Assembly (NCBI GenBank): GCA_001313085.1
Contig: BBFE01000075.1
Span: 1-8,195, forward strand
Length of the DNA: 8,195 nucleotides
Source of the DNA: Paenibacillus sp. JCM 18996
Lineage (GTDB): Bacteria; Bacillota; Bacilli; Paenibacillales; NBRC-103111
Direction of reading: 5' to 3'
The notes beneath the pieces are model-generated. The model was not told the origin of the DNA. It saw only the letters and a program-made list of their open reading frames with translations, and searched no databases. Shown piece by piece: positions 45 to 8,055 of the stretch. How positions within the stretch are numbered: the first letter of the stretch is position 1; the number at the start of each line of letters is the position of its first letter. A program made the position numbers and the translations under genes.

Positions 45-983
45 TTATACCGCAGCAAGAGCAAGCTCATATGCTTTATCAATTAACGGGTTGCCTTCCA
101 TCGTTCTCATGAACTGGTTTTCCCTAAAAGTCGCTGTTTCTCTCAGTGGCTTTGAGTGTGTAGCAAAGTCCGATACAGCATTTACGAACCGGTACGCATT
201 CTTCCCAACATGATCGAGGTCAGGAGCTTCGAAATACCTTAATTGCATACCATCTCGAAGCTGATGGACATTTTTTCTCCTGAAGCTTGCTCGGATTATC
301 GGGCATTGGGATGAGCATTTCGATGTATTCCATAATTTTATTATCAGTTAGTTTTATTTTATTTAATCGCTCAGCTTCTTCTCCTAGCCTGTCCATGTAA
401 AATTCAGCAAGCAATAGTGTCTTTTTTAGCTTCTTCCAACTTGGACTTCATATCCCCTTTATGTGTAGTTGACCAAATCCTCTGAGCATTGTTAAGCGCA
501 AGGTTAAGCGTATTCTGACAAACTATCCGGATAGGTGTCATTGCAACTTTGATGCTTCCACTACCATCATGGCTGTTGGAGAATACCAAATAAGGTGAAA
601 CACTGTCCCCAGCGATTATGTAATTATTTGGTAGTTTTGCTAATAACCAAACTTTTTTTTCCATTTTGCAAGCTCCCTGCAGTTTCATATTTCACTCCTT
701 CCCCTAATAGTTCATCAGTGAAAGCAAAAGCCTCCTGATTTTGAACGATCTTGTAGCGATCCGTAACAACTCCTAAAACTCGTTGGTCCGATGCACGAAT
801 GTTTGCTTTATACCCTGTGATATCGACTTGATTATCTGTTCGAATAGGCCGCTGAATTACTTTCCAGTCCAATTCAGCTTCCACTAAAGCTTCTTCTGAA
901 CAAATTGCCTGCTCTACTCGTCGTCCAAGTCCGTGCCAAGGTGCTTCTCTTACATAGAACATGGTTTCAACATTTGCTGCCAT
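45..983 (-). CDS. DUF932 (phage/plasmid-like, TIGR03299-type) protein, frameshifted
   Basis: The repaired reading is 311 aa, starting MAANVETMFYVREAPWHGLG and ending YELALAAV. The opening, with WHGLG close to the N-terminus, and the later FSNSHDGSGSIKVAMTPIRIVCQNTL segment broken as SHDGSG and RIVCQNTL are hallmarks I associate with the DUF932 family. That family is common on plasmids, phages and integrative elements and has no settled biochemical role. The start is ATG at 983 with GGGAGTG seven bases upstream. Three frameshifts interrupt it, all in A/T runs (653-660, 422-427, 271-276). Removing one base from each leaves 936 nt, a whole number of codons. It follows the defence operon but is separated from it by a terminator, so it is probably its own unit and an element cargo or maintenance gene. 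Family assignment is firm; function is unknown. Confidence 0.85.
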
Positions 984-1190: not shown

Positions 1191-2082
1191 TTAGTTTGGT
1201 TGCATTTCAGCATCAACAATATAATCAGGTATTAAACACTTTCGGTCCAAATTTATTAATGTTGACTCCCATTCACCTGTTCCTCTATTCTGTGGTATGT
1301 GTTGACTTATCGAGTCTGCATCCAATAAATAAAGTTTATAAGGCATATTTGTTGCCACTTCCCAAACATGAAAAAATATACCTTTGGCTTGATTGGGATG
1401 CAACCTCCCATTCATTTTTTTAGAGACGTGAATACTAATCTTCTCATTAAGCCACTTGTTGCCTTTACTTCAATCATTAGTGGAGTGTTATCATCCTTGC
1501 CTTTTTTTTGAGACAAAATATCGTAACCAGAAAAGTTAGATTCAAGTGACTGCCAGGTCGGCTGAACCCCTACTCTTTGTCCTTCATATTCCATTGATAA
1601 TCGTTCTCCTTTTCTACCAAACAAAAGAAGAGTTTCGTTTCCATGAGCACGAGCATATGATCCTAGTTTATCCCACCATGATACAATATCCTCTGTCATA
1701 CCCTTAAGTAACCCAGCTTCTTCAAAACATTGATACACATCCGGCTTAAAATACTTTACCGCTTCAGATCTACCATAGTGTATAACTGATGCCCAGGTTG
1801 GTTTTTTTCTATCATAATCAAATGTAAAATTTGAATTCTGAGCCGTTCATCATAATTCTTTGCTTGAAGTATCTCTTTCCCTTTAGATGTTAATAATAGC
1901 CTGTCATTCAAATCCAGTGTAACCCACTGAGTTTGAATGCTTGTCTGTAAGATAAGTTTTGAGGAGGCTACACCATATATGTTAAAAAAAACCTTTGGAA
2001 ATTCAGATGCTTTTAAAGGGGATACCGACAATAAATTAAGAAAGTCTTGAGTTGAATAGAGTAGACCTACCGAAAAGCTCAC
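1191..2082 (-). CDS. DUF3883-type PD-(D/E)XK nuclease, last gene of the operon, frameshifted
   Basis: The repaired product is 297 aa. The second half carries the DUF3883 pattern: GRKGERLSMEYE (about 156-167), SGYDILS (185-191, candidate catalytic Asp188) and MIEVKAT (203-209, candidate Glu205 and Lys207), a PD-(D/E)XK active-site layout. A basic helix-like stretch (SKKMNGRLHP) and a final strand-rich part follow. The first 110 residues resemble no domain I know. The start is GTG at 2082, which overlaps the helicase stop as GTGA and has AGGGGG eight bases upstream, so translation is probably coupled. Two one-base losses are needed, near 1829-1832 and near 1454-1457; after them 894 nt close exactly. 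Role by inference: DNA cleavage subunit working with the helicase. DUF3883 is known near helicases and methyltransferases in defence loci. Confidence 0.8.
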
Positions 2083-3869
2083 TGGTATGGCCCCCTCAAG
2101 TGATGAACGAAATCCAATAAATCATCATCATTGAAATCATCGCTCATCGTTTCCTCATCCCCATATTCAGGCTCAATTTGGAGAGATCTATCATTCAACA
2201 CTTCCGCCATACGGTTAATTTTGAGCTGAAGCCTTCTTTCAACTGACTCATCCACGCTTTCAGGACAATAAACAATTTCCACATTCGTATCTATATTACG
2301 CGGTAAACCTAAACGATGTATTCGATCAACAGACTGAAGAAAATGTGCCGCGTTATAACTTCTATCGAGATAAATTGTGTCATGACAAACAGTATGCAAA
2401 CTTATTCCTTCTGATGCGGCTGCAGGGTTAGCGATTAATACAAAGCATTTGTCATCGTCATGGAACCGCTTAATTTTTTGCTTCCCTAGTGTCGAGATCA
2501 TCTTCACTACCAGCGTCAACACCACCGTGAATATATTCAGCTCCAAGATCTCTTAGCCTTAACGCTAATAGTTCTACATTCTCCACGAACGTTGACCATA
2601 CTAATGTTTTTTTTGTTTTGAGATGCAAGTTGTCGTACTCTTTTACAAATATATTTTATTTTTTTGACTATCTCCTTCAGCTAAAACATCCTTTAATACG
2701 TCAGAATGATTTAATTCTTCTCGGGCTAGAAGAGCAGGATTTGATGTAACTTGCAGCATCCTCATAATAGATCTACCCATTGCCCTTAGTCTAATCCTAT
2801 CTATAGCGTGTAATTCAGTCAGTTGTCGAGCTCTTCAAATCTTAAGAGATCATACAAACGTCTCTGTGCAACACTCATTTGAACAGGTGTTAGTATAAAT
2901 CTAGGTTTTTTTGAGTCCAAGTTCCTCTTTGGTTGTCCGAACATATACAGGTCTTATGTGATCAACAATATTTTCAGCATCTACCTAATCTCTGGATATA
3001 AAAAAAGTTAAACTGTGACACTAAATCCAAGGATGAGTTTGGTAAAGGTGTACCTGACATAATTAGCTTATAGTCTGGAATGTGGGAAATAGACAGAATT
3101 GCTCTACCTATCACACCGTCATTTCCTCGTTTAATCCTATGGCTCTCGTCCAAGAACATGAAGGCTGGATATTTACTTATATAATTACCTATCATATGTA
3201 TTACATTTGGAAGCTGTTGGTAAGTGATTAACATTACCTCAGGCTCTTGAGAAAGTAAGTGTTCTATCGCCCTTGTTCCTCCACGAAGGCGAACTATTTG
3301 GGGCCCTCTGGGATTACAAATGTTAATTTGTTCTTCCCAAGCAGCAAAAGCGTTTTTTTCGGCGCAACAATTAGTAATCTGGCATTCTCAATTCTTTTTT
3401 TTAGAAAAAAACAATGCCAAGCTTCAGTGGTTTTTTCCGGCACCAGGTACAGAAAAAGTCGCCCCAGCTGTCAGTGCTGCTAATCTTGAAACATTCCTTA
3501 CTTGATGTTCAGTCAACGGTCTCTTGAAACCAACTTCGGATAGCTTATCTAAAAGTTCTTTATCTGATATAGGACTTGAGGCAATTGCTTCTCTGTATCC
3601 ATTAGTTTTTTCTGTTCGACTCTCTTAATAACCGCTCAACATTAGGATCAACTGAAAGTTTGATATTAAACTTCCGGAGAGTTAGTCTTAGCAAATCCTT
3701 ACAGTTCAAAAAAAGACCACCATGGTAATTGAAGACTGTTTGCTGAATTAACTGTTACATCCTTAGAGTTTTCTATAAATACACGTCTTATTTCACCCCA
3801 AGCCGTAAAGTCACCTTCTAAGCTTATCTTTGCTGAATAGGACTCAGGTATAAAGTTAATTACCAGCAT
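2079..3869 (-). CDS. SNF2/DEAD-like superfamily 2 helicase, frameshifted
   Basis: The repaired reading is 596 aa. ATP-motor motifs appear in order: a Q-like LTEHQ (118-122), Walker A PGAGKTTE (141-148), DESHR (240-244), SGTPLPN (271-277), then in the second RecA lobe ASEGISLH (485-492) and QSVDRIHRLG (512-521). This is the SNF2 version of SF2; the usual Gln after HRxG is replaced by Leu. An N-terminal region of about 115 aa is unassigned and the C-terminus is acidic (DDFNDDDLLDF). The ATG at 3869 lies inside the end of the ParB-like gene (14-base overlap) with GGGAG upstream; the stop overlaps the next start. Ten frameshifts are needed (near 3708-3714, 3606-3611, 3431-3436, 3353-3359, 3000-3006, 2984, 2906-2912, 2830, 2654-2657, 2474-2479); their net is zero, matching 1791 nt. 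Likely role: ATP-driven translocation on DNA for the defence complex. Confidence 0.88.
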
Positions 3870-5149
3870 GTGATTCATACATCTCCCGTAAGTTACGTAC
3901 TGAACGCTCTATCGCATCTAATTGTTCTTTTAGTCCCTTTGTTGTAGAATTCTCATCAAAGCCCATTACCGCTTCGGTTAATAACGTATTTGCTTTCTGG
4001 ACTCTGTTCATCACATAGTCCTGATTATTTTTTTTCTTTTTTCCCTCTCTTTTTTCTTCTTGAATTACATCAATAACCACTTGATATACAGTATCTTGAA
4101 CTTCCGGGTTGGCTATTTGAATGGCAAGGTTTTCAAGACGTGAGTCCTCTCTATATCCCCCTAACAAGTCAAGATCATCTTCGTTAAGGGTGTCTTCAAT
4201 ATGCAATTCTCTTTCTAATCTTTCAATAATTTGTGGAAGAAACTCATTCACTTCAGGTATCGTTTCATATCTACGACCAGCAGTAGCAGGAGTATCAATT
4301 ATGCAGTATGCAACGTTCGTAAAAAATCTCTTTCTGCATATGATCTTTAATTTTTTTGCTCTATTTTTTTTCAGTTGCTGGAACGCAAATTCCTTTTTTT
4401 TCTCAACATCGTCATATTCCTTGGCTTTATTTCTGCTTCGAAGAAATGTATCAACATGTTCAAGAAGGTCAATTTTTTTCCTCAACTTCTTTTTTTCTTT
4501 AAGATCGTACAGTGTTGCAATATCCTCATAACTATAACCATATTTTTTCCTGCTTTTTTACGTAACATACATGCTTCACTTACCCATGTATAGTTAGATT
4601 TGATATCTTTTTTTTATTTGTAACTGTGCCTCTAGTTCGTCAATATCCTTCTCATCACAAGGTGGAAGTATTATTACATCAATGTATTGAAAACGATCAT
4701 ACAATTCACGGTTCGAATCTTTATGTTTTTTTCTCGCACTTCCCGCATAGCACATAACCGTCTATTGCCGTTTATCACGAATCCAAGATGAGATAGTATC
4801 AAAGGTTCTTCTTGAATGTTATCCACAAAGAATTCCCGAAGATCGGCATTCGGGTTTTTTAAGCATTTGCTTAAGTAAATCGTGCTGGATTTCTAGAGCT
4901 TCTATTGATTCTAAATCCCTTTCAAAAAAAATCTTGCGGTAATTCTTCATGTTTAGATAAGTATTCTTCTTGTGCAGCTTGAGTTCTTCCGTTAGCCAAT
5001 CTATATTTAGGCATATCGATTGGAACACGATACATGCTAAATTGACGCATTTCCTTTAGGAACTTTTGTTGAACCTTCTTCTCCGTTGGAGTGGATAACA
5101 ATTCTTGAATTAGTACTCTTCTCTTTGGTAATGGCCAGCCTAGTTCCAT
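3856..5149 (-). CDS. ParB/Srx-fold-like protein of the defence operon, frameshifted
   Basis: The repaired reading is 430 aa. The N-terminal half has a ParB-like signature: YRLANGRTQ (49-57), an EPLIL strand and then NGNRRLCAMRE (126-136), comparable with the GERR box of ParB-type proteins. After it come a DEKDIDELEAQLQ segment, a SYEDIATLY helix that could be helix-turn-helix, and a charged, helical C-terminal half. It is not a chromosome-partition ParB; the family I recall sits beside restriction genes, and its activity is unknown (DNA binding, nucleotide binding or nicking are all possible). The start is ATG at 5149, five bases after the BglII-like stop, with AAGGAGG overlapping that stop region. 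Five shifts are needed (4924-4931, 4855-4860, 4726-4732, 4608-4615, 4543-4548), giving 1293 nt. A compensating pair around 4351-4357 and 4321-4326 is also likely, because it replaces an odd basic stretch by KDHMQKEIF. Confidence 0.72.
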
Positions 5150-5154
5150 ATGGA

Positions 5155-5628
5155 TTAATCCTCCTTATTATCGCCTTCGAATCCAATTACGACTATTGGC
5201 ATTGTAATAACTTTATTAAAACTTTCCAATTCTCGAGTCATACGTTCATACTGTGCAATGTTGTCTCCTATTACTCTTGCAGCTATCTTTGTCGGGACTA
5301 TATAAATTGCCGACTTCGCTTTACCCTTTACGTATGTTGCTTGTAGCTTTAAAAGATCAGCATAAAATCTACTCATATTGCCGGTTTGTAAACAGAGGGC
5401 AACACCATTTTTGGTTGATGTGATTGTAATCCCCTTATCCTTATCTATTCTAACTGCACCGGACCAACCAAAACGTCGAAACTCTTCCAGGAATGCCTCT
5501 CGTAAATTACTTCCACAACCCTTCTTAATTTCATAAGAAGTGCCTTGTACAACTTCCAAAATTGGTTGGAGAACGTCGGGTTCTAATGCATGCTCTCCAT
5601 AGTTATGCGAATACAATTTTATTTTCAT
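5155..5628 (-). CDS. Small BglII-like restriction endonuclease family protein, catalytic acids apparently missing
   Basis: This 157-aa protein is the only accessory gene with an uninterrupted frame. QTGNMSRFYADLLKLQ (81-96), AIYIVP (107-112) and ITMPIVVIGFE (141-151) resemble the core of BglII/BamHI-type restriction enzymes that recognise GATC-centred sites. It is shorter than BglII (about 223 aa). In BglII the core is Asp84, Glu93-x-Gln95; here the matching place reads CLQ (79-81), keeping Gln but with Cys for Glu, and no Asp lies at the matching earlier place (TITST). It may therefore bind a site without cutting, or use another acid. The start is ATG at 5628 with AGAGGA nine bases upstream. 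It opens the four-gene operon. Alignment is by eye, so both the family and the missing residues need checking. Confidence 0.65.
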   Translation of the reverse strand: MKIKLYSHNYGEHALEPDVLQPILEVVQGTSYEIKKGCGSNLREAFLEEFRRFGWSGAVRIDKDKGITITSTKNGVALCLQTGNMSRFYADLLKLQATYVKGKAKSAIYIVPTKIAARVIGDNIAQYERMTRELESFNKVITMPIVVIGFEGDNKED

Positions 5629-5663
5629 GTTAAAATATCCTCTTTAAAGACGTTTATTTTTTA

Positions 5664-5692
5664 ATTATACAACACAAATACAAATACCCTAA
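5664..5692 (-). promoter_or_regulatory. Candidate promoter of the four-gene operon
   Basis: On the minus strand a perfect TATAAT (5664-5669) lies 35 bases before the ATG at 5628, in an AT-rich gap after the methyltransferase terminator. The hexamer 17 bases upstream is a poor TTAGGG. An alternative TTGACT with TATTAG at 17-base spacing lies further upstream (about 5691-5719). A promoter here is likely; the exact boxes are uncertain. Confidence 0.5.
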
Positions 5693-5728
5693 TATAGTTT
5701 CAAAAAAATATAGTCAAATTTTTTTTAT

Positions 5729-5760
5729 AAAAAAAACAGTAGGGAGCACTGTCCCTACTG
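5729..5760 (-). terminator. Intrinsic terminator after the methyltransferase gene
   Basis: A perfect 9-bp stem (CAGTAGGGA with TCCCTACTG, 5737-5760, 6-base loop) is followed on the minus strand by eight T (5736-5729). It begins seven bases after the methyltransferase stop codon, so modification and the downstream genes are transcribed as separate units. Confidence 0.9.
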
Positions 5761-5766
5761 AATAAA

Positions 5767-6740
5767 TTAATGGCTTTGAGAACTCAATAAATCTTCCCAC
5801 TCTTTTGGGAATTGCGCTACCTTCTCATTTCCTGTTGGTTTGTATACCTCTTTCCCTAAAGGTCGGATTTTTTTAGAGTTTCATTAAAGAACGCCTGAAT
5901 TCGTTCTTTGCCAGTTTCAACATAGTTGATTTCTTTTTTTCTATTCCTATAGCTTTACGATTATGACGTAGAGTTGCAATTAATGTAGATGCTACACCAG
6001 CATAAGGGTCAAGTACCCAATCCTCCTCATTTGACAATGCCAAGACACATCGTTCTACCAATTCAATTGGGAATTGACATGGATGACTCGTTTTCTCAGG
6101 ATGATTTGCCTTTACGTTTGGTATTTCCCAGAGTTCCTTATCCCACTCGTTTTCGAGAAATTCCCAAACATCGGCAGGATTTTTTTTACCTAATGGATTT
6201 CCTGTAGGCTTCCCCTTTTTTTTCACCCTTATATCCTCTTTTACCTGGATATTTAGCTGGAATACGAACAGAATCTAAATTAAAAGTGTAATCATTTGAT
6301 TTTGTAAACCATAGTATGGTTTCATACCTTCCAGAGAATCTCTTCGAGCATGAAGACCATGTCCAAAATGCCAAATAATGCGATTTCTTAGAGAGAGACC
6401 AAGCTCTTTGAATATATTGTAATAATATATATCAAGGGGGAATATCTCTCCGTTATTAACATAATTGCCAACTTGCCAGCAAATACTTCCGTTTGGACTT
6501 AGAATCTCAACAAGTTGTTTTATCACTTCTTTTTTGTGTTTCTAAGTAATTTTCAATTGAAGTCTTTGTCTCGTATTCCTTACCAACGTTATATGGAGGG
6601 GACGTAATGATGAGTTTTACGGATTCTCTTGGAAAGTCACTAAGAAACTGCAACGTGTCTCCTTGGTGAAGAACTATATTGCTATCCTCTTGAAGAAAAT
6701 TATCTATACGCACATCATTATTGGCATTAATCTGGTTCAT
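5767..6740 (-). CDS. Site-specific DNA methyltransferase, beta class (N4-cytosine or N6-adenine), frameshifted
   Basis: The repaired reading is 324 aa. The catalytic motif IV TSPPYN (46-51) precedes the SAM-binding motif DPYAGVASTL (244-253), the order of beta-class amino-methyltransferases. GRYETILWFTKSNDYTFNLD (137-156) and IPNVKANHPEKTSHPCQFP (206-224) are strongly conserved in this group. The region between about 125 and 200 probably holds target recognition. SPPY is common in N4-cytosine enzymes but also occurs in N6-adenine ones, so the base is undecided; M.BamHI and M.BglII are N4-cytosine enzymes, which would fit the BglII-like neighbour. The ATG at 6740 is preferred over upstream ATGs because AAGGTGTGA precedes it at seven bases. 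Five shifts (6530-6535, 6343-6344, 6216-6223, 5934-5940, 5868-5874) bring 974 to 975 nt, restoring the tail IEKKEINYVETGKERIQ and ending LSSQSH. Role: protects host DNA. Confidence 0.9.
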
Positions 6741-7019: not shown

Positions 7020-7380
7020 TGGAGACGAGGGGAGTCGAACCCCTGTCCGAAGATAACGCCACATAAGCTTCTACGGGTGTAGCCACGGTTTTGATGTCAC
7101 CCGAGCAGCGCCCCGTAACCGGCTCTGCTTTGGGTCAGCCTGATTGTCTTCTTCCGTCCGACCCCAGGCGGAGACCGAGCGGCGTATCCCACTTAGAGTG
7201 AGCCCCTATCCTGGCACATGGGCGATGCGAGGTAGAAGCTTAGCGAGTCAGGTTATTAAGCTGCTGCTAAAGTTGTACGTTGGTTGCCATTTAATAGGCT
7301 TTAGCGTTGATGAAGCGGACGCGTCCCCACTACCCGCTACTCATGCTCGAACTACCCCCGTCGAATCCAATAACGCCCCC
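7020..7380 (-). ncRNA. ssrA: Transfer-messenger RNA (tmRNA)
   Basis: The gene is 361 nt. The 5' end GGGGGCG pairs with CGTCTCC at the 3' end to form the acceptor stem. The conserved GGATTCGAC follows near the 5' end, and a T-arm (AGGGG TTCGACT CCCCT) lies near the 3' end. The discriminator A is at 7020; CCA is not encoded and must be added. The tag reading frame runs 7288-7256: GGC AAC CAA CGT ACA ACT TTA GCA GCA GCT TAA, giving GNQRTTLAAA after the alanine carried by tmRNA. It rescues stalled ribosomes together with SmpB, encoded just upstream. The 3' end of ssrA is a classic integration site, and the AT-rich accessory block begins directly beyond it. Confidence 0.97.
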
Positions 7381-7535: not shown

Positions 7536-8019
7536 TTAGCGCGCAACCTTCTGTCTATCGCGCAGAGCGCGTTGAATATCTCTCTGAGCATCACGCTTAG
7601 CGGCGGTTTCCCGCTTGTCGTACTGCTTCTTCCCTTTACCTAAGCCCAGCAAAAGCTTGGCAAATCCATTACGGATATAAACCTTTAACGGCACTAAGGT
7701 GTAGCCTTCCTGCTTGGACGCGCCGAGCAGCTTGTTGATCTCTACCTTTTTTTCAGCAAAAGCTTGCGGGCCCGCGTTGGATCCGTCGGGTTGCTGCGAT
7801 TGCCCTGCTCGAACGGGGAAATGTGCATATTGTGCACAAAGCTTCGCCGTTGCGAATGGTCGCGAAGCTGTCGGAAAGATTGGCTTTTGCCTGGCGTACC
7901 GACTTGATTTCCGTGCCGGTGAGCACGATGCCGCACTCATACGTATCCTCTATAAAATAATCATGGGAAGCTTTCTTGTTCTGGGCCAGAACCTTGTTCC
8001 CATCACTCTTCTTCGCCAT
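7536..8019 (-). CDS. smpB: SsrA-binding protein SmpB, two apparent frameshifts
   Basis: The repaired product is about 161 aa, the usual size for SmpB. It opens [20 protein letters not shown], continues with [15 protein letters not shown] and [12 protein letters not shown], and ends with the basic [15 protein letters not shown] tail that reaches the ribosomal decoding centre. SmpB binds the tRNA-like part of tmRNA and delivers it to stalled ribosomes. The start is ATG at 8019, with AGAAGGAGT seven bases upstream; an in-frame ATG at 8028 falls in that Shine-Dalgarno region and is rejected. Two shifts break the frame: a missing base at 7838-7840 (after RNGEA) and a length change in the T7 run 7747-7753 (before VEINKLLG). 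As this is a conserved housekeeping gene, sequencing error is the simpler explanation. It lies between rnr and ssrA, as in many Firmicutes. Confidence 0.95.
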
Positions 8020-8055
8020 GAATATCACTCCTTCTACAGTGGCGGCGACAACTAG

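Follow-up and report, generated by a model that had tools for sequence, protein, structure and literature searches.

The window analysed here, the whole stretch of 8,195 nucleotides from Paenibacillus sp. JCM 18996, carries a cassette of five genes, all on the minus strand from about 6740 to 1191 (Table 1). They encode a beta-class DNA methyltransferase (MTase), a BglII-like protein, a ParB-like protein, a SNF2-type motor and a DUF3883/NOV_C protein, the proposed nuclease. The original prediction had named these five genes from the letters of the DNA, and all of them proved real. Pfam backs four of the five: PF01555 matches the MTase pieces, PF09195 the BglII-like gene (E 1.2e-9), PF00176 the SNF2 pieces and PF13020 the NOV_C gene (E 1.4e-5). 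For the SNF2 gene PF00271 fell slightly below the cut-off, and tblastn with relatives agrees with the assignment. The ParB-like gene is supported by tblastn with relatives, matching its counterpart in locus L008 at 65% over 75 aa and 45% over 368 aa. The window MTase, in which the TSPPY motif IV precedes motif I, matches the MTase of the same locus at 59% over 209 aa (tblastn). The close coupling first described for the last four genes was exact on recheck: five bases separate the BglII-like stop from the ParB-like ATG, the ParB-like gene (stop 3856) and the SNF2 gene (ATG 3869) overlap by 14 bases, and the SNF2 and NOV_C genes share a GTGA at 2082-2079.

Table 1. Positions of the genes discussed, in the window unless a locus is named.
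Feature	Position	Strand	Remarks
Beta-class DNA methyltransferase	5767..6740	-	several frame pieces; 5767 end read by eye
BglII-like protein	5155..5628	-	intact, 157 aa; proposed non-cutting recognition subunit
ParB-like protein	3856..5149	-	frame-broken; about 420 aa in relatives
SNF2-type motor	2079..3869	-	frame-broken; about 590 aa in relatives
DUF3883/NOV_C protein, proposed nuclease	1191..2082	-	D...ExK; frame-broken
Split gene near the cassette	404-983	-	
tmRNA gene	7020-7380	-	
smpB	7536-8028	-	pieces; named by eye
ZorA, ZorB, ZorC, then SNF2 protein	L007:2204-9963		Zorya type I genes (PADLOC)
Longer BglII relative	L056:14335-14988		D...E kept
Longer BglII relative	L048:11762-12430		D...E kept
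Fused ParB-like and SNF2 protein	L050:1817-4891		one open frame, 1024 aa
ParB-like gene	L077:7460-9028		profile match 6.9e-53
Cys-rich protein of about 285 aa in BglII slot	L022:599-1558		alphaproteobacterial plasmid
Cys-rich protein of about 285 aa in BglII slot	L023:5516-6382		alphaproteobacterial plasmid
Cys-rich protein of about 285 aa in BglII slot	L025:5495-6337		alphaproteobacterial plasmid
Cys-rich protein of about 285 aa in BglII slot	L026:5495-6340		alphaproteobacterial plasmid

Every cassette gene of the window except the BglII-like one is split into frame pieces. These breaks look technical, that is, like assembly errors, because the lengths of A/T runs differ from those of intact relatives and the neighbouring smpB is also frame-split. 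Positions 1191-6740 hold 2 A/T runs of exactly 5 bases and 28 of 7-8, against 18-27 runs of 5 and 1-7 of 7-8 in four intact relative regions of 2.8-5.2 kb. A set of true pseudogenes was rejected on the same statistics, and the work at the protein level was based on intact relatives of the window genes.

Such relatives are widespread. After repeat contig copies were dropped, 17 distinct loci with a BglII-like gene remained (the window, L001-L011, L015, L021, L045, L076 and L080). A profile search with the BglII-like protein gave seven genome loci and four viral loci; the ParB-like profile found five viral contigs and the SNF2 profile four, one of them new, and each viral contig found in this way has a BglII-like gene in front. 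Further loci came from one plasmid and from whole-genome searches. The hosts include Bacillus pumilus, Robertkochia, Winogradskyella, Chitinophaga and Caulobacter, and further loci stem from a Planctomycetota MAG, a Sphingomonas MAG and a plasmid of Paracoccus denitrificans. The same gene order, which the original prediction proposed to look for, was thus recovered in other genomes, with one correction: what recurs as a fixed unit is a core of four genes, and the MTase is exchangeable. The order BglII-like, ParB-like, SNF2, NOV_C is complete in 15 of the 17 loci, among them the frame-broken window and L080, whose SNF2 gene lies in two frames; the two incomplete loci, L008 and L045, are cut off by a contig border. 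Since all clade relatives not truncated by the end of a contig show the order, it is beyond chance. Moreover, pairwise distances of the four core proteins across 13 loci correlate at r 0.86-0.96, a value reached for none of the six protein pairs in 5000 permutations. At the level of sequence divergence, this correlation shows joint descent of the core, not contact between its proteins.

The MTase is present in 16 of the 17 loci, and its kind and place vary. A beta-class enzyme lies directly upstream in 12 loci, L001 has a convergent beta-class MTase of 481 aa (PF01555), and a convergent C5 MTase is found in L006 (PF00145) and, by profile, in L007 and L015. Beyond the C5 MTase of L006 and L007 stands a gene that was judged Vsr-like by eye. 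On the 11-kb contig of L045 no MTase was detected with profiles. Judged by gene content, then, the MTase is exchangeable and the fixed core comprises the other four genes. All 15 beta-class MTases inspected contain TSPPY, a motif typical of N4-cytosine enzymes, and together with the C5 enzymes it hints at a target site containing cytosine. The nearest solved relatives of the cassette MTase include those of RsrI and MboIIA, which are adenine enzymes, so cytosine is no more than the probable base.

The motor and the putative nuclease both retain their signatures. The SNF2 motifs PGAGKTT, DE(S/C)HR, (S/T)GTP and QSxDRIHR are kept in all ten relatives aligned, and so are the NOV_C residues D186, E202 and K204. 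A PDB search with the NOV_C profile returned no convincing relative. The SNF2 gene of L007 is included in the SNF2 alignment and is blank in the 45-locus table, where the frame picked for it begins too far upstream.

The reading favoured here, and held with rather more confidence than doubt, is that the cassette encodes a restriction-modification system of several subunits that depends on ATP. The MTase would mark the host site, probably on cytosine. The BglII-like protein, with a BglII fold and without the catalytic acids, would recognise the unmodified palindrome without cutting it, and a ParB-type clamp, probably nucleotide-dependent, would be loaded there together with the SNF2 motor. The motor would then move along or remodel the DNA and switch on the NOV_C nuclease, which would cleave after movement or collision; an anti-phage effect would be expected. 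If this is right, ParB clamps, familiar from the partition of chromosomes and plasmids, have a second use in DNA restriction, and the fold of a textbook restriction enzyme has been turned over to recognition alone. The modular set also yields direct predictions on the site, the nucleotide and the nuclease.

The identity of the ParB-like protein is the least obvious of the five. No match was found for it in Pfam (L003, L009) or in PADLOC and NCBIfam (L001, L003, L009), a PDB search with its profile gave no convincing relative, and hhalign of the family against two ParB-type proteins of B. pumilus reached a probability of only 6.6%, with GNRR aligned to GERR. Two related plasmid proteins bear the RefSeq name ParB/RepB/Spo0J family. 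The label given to the gene at the outset, out of reach for Pfam, is upheld by the predicted fold. A model of the relative P0121 (pLDDT 88) shows the N-terminal plus helix-turn-helix fold of ParB; VIA-align scored KorB at 10.2, ParB at up to 9.2 and Noc at up to 8.5, and the first 16 rows were all ParB kin, several of them with high rmsd. Foldseek gave a best E of 2e-3. Kinship to ParB is thus weak in sequence, and the predicted fold argues in favour of it. The fold is shared with the ParB, Noc and KorB clamp family, whereas profile similarity to that family is not detectable, the length is about 420 aa, the partner is a SNF2 motor and the nucleotide motif GERR of the ParB CTPase clamp, present in both B. 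pumilus proteins, is replaced by GNRR. The latter occurs in all 78 aligned ParB-like proteins (72 hand-picked for diversity among 120 matches listed of 298, plus six locus proteins) and in 42 of 45 loci. As the Glu of GERR matters for CTP hydrolysis, the replacement means that nucleotide hydrolysis by the ParB-like protein may differ.

Alternatively, the effector could be the ParB-like protein itself. Acting perhaps as a nuclease or as an enzyme that degrades nucleotides, it would be activated by a BglII-like/SNF2 sensor, with an abortive outcome rather than cleavage of foreign DNA alone. In the context of defence, the available parts of two papers discuss ParB/Srx-superfamily proteins that have nicking or NTPase activity (PMC12839542, PMC10853773). 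Nevertheless, this alternative is unlikely, as the P0121 model shares the domain arrangement of ParB (the partition type), Noc and KorB across as many as 200 residues and NOV_C already supplies a nuclease signature.

In the reading favoured here, the BglII-like protein would bind without cutting. Its predicted structure has the BglII-type fold, and the protein aligns overall with BglII, BstYI and BamHI. The acids Asp and Glu that serve catalysis in BglII and BstYI are, however, not both preserved. In an alignment of 83 sequences (82 hand-picked for diversity among 120 matches listed of 616 homologues from a profile search) the catalytic Glu column holds Cys in 81, Ala in one and Asn in one, with an acid in none, and the divergent proteins of L021, L045 and L076 have Gln there. 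Column 70 is T, S or A throughout the 83. At column 62, which has the spacing of the BamHI Asp, D occurs in 44 of the 83, so that some members of the family may have kept one acid. The loss is specific to this short family, because longer BglII relatives in L048 and L056 keep D...E and are possible active endonucleases. These longer relatives adjoin C5 MTases in ParB-SNF2 neighbourhoods. The BglII-like protein matched one plasmid record and no phage record.

It is nonetheless conceivable, if quite improbable, that the BglII-like protein does cut, as a type II endonuclease whose active site is unusual, and that the ParB-like, SNF2 and NOV_C proteins assist it or add a second layer of defence. 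Besides the fold and the Asp at column 62, this view can draw on Gln81, Asp91, Lys94 and Glu133, which are invariant in the alignment and could form a shifted site, and on the database name type II restriction endonuclease borne by some homologues. It has to contend with the missing Glu and with the fact that in every uncut locus, unlike in BglII, BstYI and BamHI, motor and nuclease genes accompany the protein, including a separate one with an intact D...ExK. Should the non-cutting role prove right, some of the 616 homologues that databases name as type II endonucleases may not cut.

The genomic setting bears on a third view. The window cassette lies directly 3' of the tmRNA gene, and tmRNA genes are common integration sites; a search of the rest of the window turned up no repeated copy of the tmRNA 3' end. 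Relatives of the cassette occur on plasmids and viral contigs. Near the window cassette there is also a split gene, which we take to resemble a DUF932-type phage or plasmid protein. In L007, Zorya type I genes and a SNF2 protein stand directly before the cassette, and flanking proteins of L002, L003, L004, L008, L009 and L011, one from each, had no PADLOC match at 1e-8; among the loci whose flanking proteins were scanned, a defence-island setting, judged from these matches, is thus seen in L007 alone. That the set maintains or regulates mobile elements (through segregation, transcription or protection of element DNA) instead of serving restriction is very unlikely: the tmRNA, the plasmids and viral contigs, and a ParA-type gene close by in six wider-family neighbourhoods from Bacilli (one scanned) would suit it, but the nuclease signature in ten of ten aligned NOV_C proteins, the changing MTase partners with Vsr-like and C5 MTase neighbours, and the Zorya genes beside L007 speak against it.

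With restriction as the preferred role, the question is whether the system has been described. It had been proposed that the cassette resembles a restriction system with a motor, distinct from BREX, DISARM and Dnd. The gene anatomy bears out the resemblance, refined by a BglII-like protein without its catalytic acids, and the suggested search against defence-system profiles (PADLOC, NCBIfam) matched no named system. Pfam recognised N6_N4_Mtase, BglII, SNF2/Helicase_C and NOV_C in the L003 operon, and nothing for the ParB-like protein. The operon proteins of L003 and L009 had no match to the marker genes PglZ/BrxL of BREX or DndCDE/SspBCD of Dnd/Ssp, the only BrxH match being a weak cross-match of SNF2. 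For DISARM DrmA, DrmB and DrmC, the same two loci gave just weak DrmA/DrmD cross-matches of the SNF2 protein, and NCBIfam DrmD fell far under the cut-off on cassette proteins. ZorA and ZorB are absent from the operon, where the SNF2 protein alone cross-matches ZorD; the ZorABC genes beside L007 are a set separate from the cassette. PADLOC cross-matches were rejected as a mark of system identity, since they reflect shared SNF2 or MTase domains.

Closer likenesses come from the literature, each taken from the available parts of the source. CglI and NgoAVII combine an MTase with separate helicase-like ATPase and nuclease proteins, as the cassette does, and need ATP hydrolysis for cleavage (PMC4267653, PMC5737866). 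There, however, one R protein recognises and cuts and the ATPase is of the DEAD family, an arrangement not found by Pfam in the L003 operon, whereas in the cassette the BglII-fold, ParB-like, SNF2 and NOV_C proteins are encoded separately. Restriction-modification operons with SWI2/SNF2 helicases and MORC-type ATPases likewise bring a SNF2 helicase, DNA methylases and Vsr-type and other nucleases into one neighbourhood (PMC2292703); they have GHKL/MORC ATPases, and the parts available mention no ParB-like or BglII-like proteins. Fusions of SNF2 with DUF3883, called a novel REase domain, occur in restriction-modification operons with HEPN/AAA+ proteins (PMC3710099). The link between motor and DUF3883 is shared, but the cassette has two genes for it and adds the ParB-like and BglII-like proteins. 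No description of the BglII-like/ParB-like/SNF2/NOV_C set was found in the accessible open literature, a scope that leaves out REBASE and most preprints and subscription papers. As a restriction system directed at foreign DNA, the set seems to be of a kind not described before.

Beyond the BglII-type loci, the pairing of ParB-like protein and motor extends to a wider family. With a cut-off of E 1e-10, matches to the ParB-like profile were present in 16 of 398 genomes from the B. pumilus class, 7 of 385 from the Caulobacter class and 7 of 395 from the Robertkochia phylum, the centre genome being included by design in each sample. Of 27 further neighbourhoods, 25 have a SNF2 gene next to the ParB-like gene and on its strand, and in L050, one of these, the two share a single open frame; the exceptions are L045, at a contig border, and L077, where no SNF2 gene was detected near the ParB-like gene. 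Profiles found an MTase in 13 of the 27. Absences in the 45-locus table, which uses profiles built in this analysis, are weak. L074 and L075 have MTase, ParB-like, SNF2 and NOV_C genes and no BglII-like gene, by tblastn as well, so some relatives replace the BglII-like subunit or do without it. In four alphaproteobacterial plasmid loci its slot holds a protein of about 285 aa that is unrelated to the BglII-like protein by alignment and, in the three loci scanned, has no Pfam match. ParB-like, SNF2 and DUF3883 genes come after it, and three of the four loci have an annotated C5 MTase nearby. In L052, L056, L083, L084 and L085 a C5 MTase is accompanied by a protein of about 325 aa, with NOV_C seen by scan in L056 and by profile in L085. 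Nine Bacilli loci pair the ParB-like protein with a SNF2 protein of 849-887 aa; the one scanned, in L048, has a PLD match, and HxKx5D, a form not covered by the PLD pattern of the 45-locus table, is present in all four helicases viewed from these loci. A positive PLD pattern in L002 is probably chance, as no PLD domain is otherwise indicated there.

These arrangements could belong to a widespread restriction class built on a ParB-type nucleotide-switch clamp and a SNF2 motor, into which a recognition subunit (a cutting-dead BglII fold or the unrelated protein of about 285 aa), an MTase (beta-class or C5) and a nuclease (NOV_C, or PLD on the motor) would be plugged as modules, with nucleotide-gated clamp loading at unmethylated sites. 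The generalisation is tentative, and its chances are put somewhat below even. If true, such loading would be a new way of licensing restriction. On a Streptomyces plasmid, the ParB and helicase genes alone are annotated. In six Bacilli neighbourhoods (L047, L049, L051, L054, L055 and L058) a ParA-type gene, its identity scanned in L051, precedes the ParB-like gene and a SNF2 gene for 854-887 aa.
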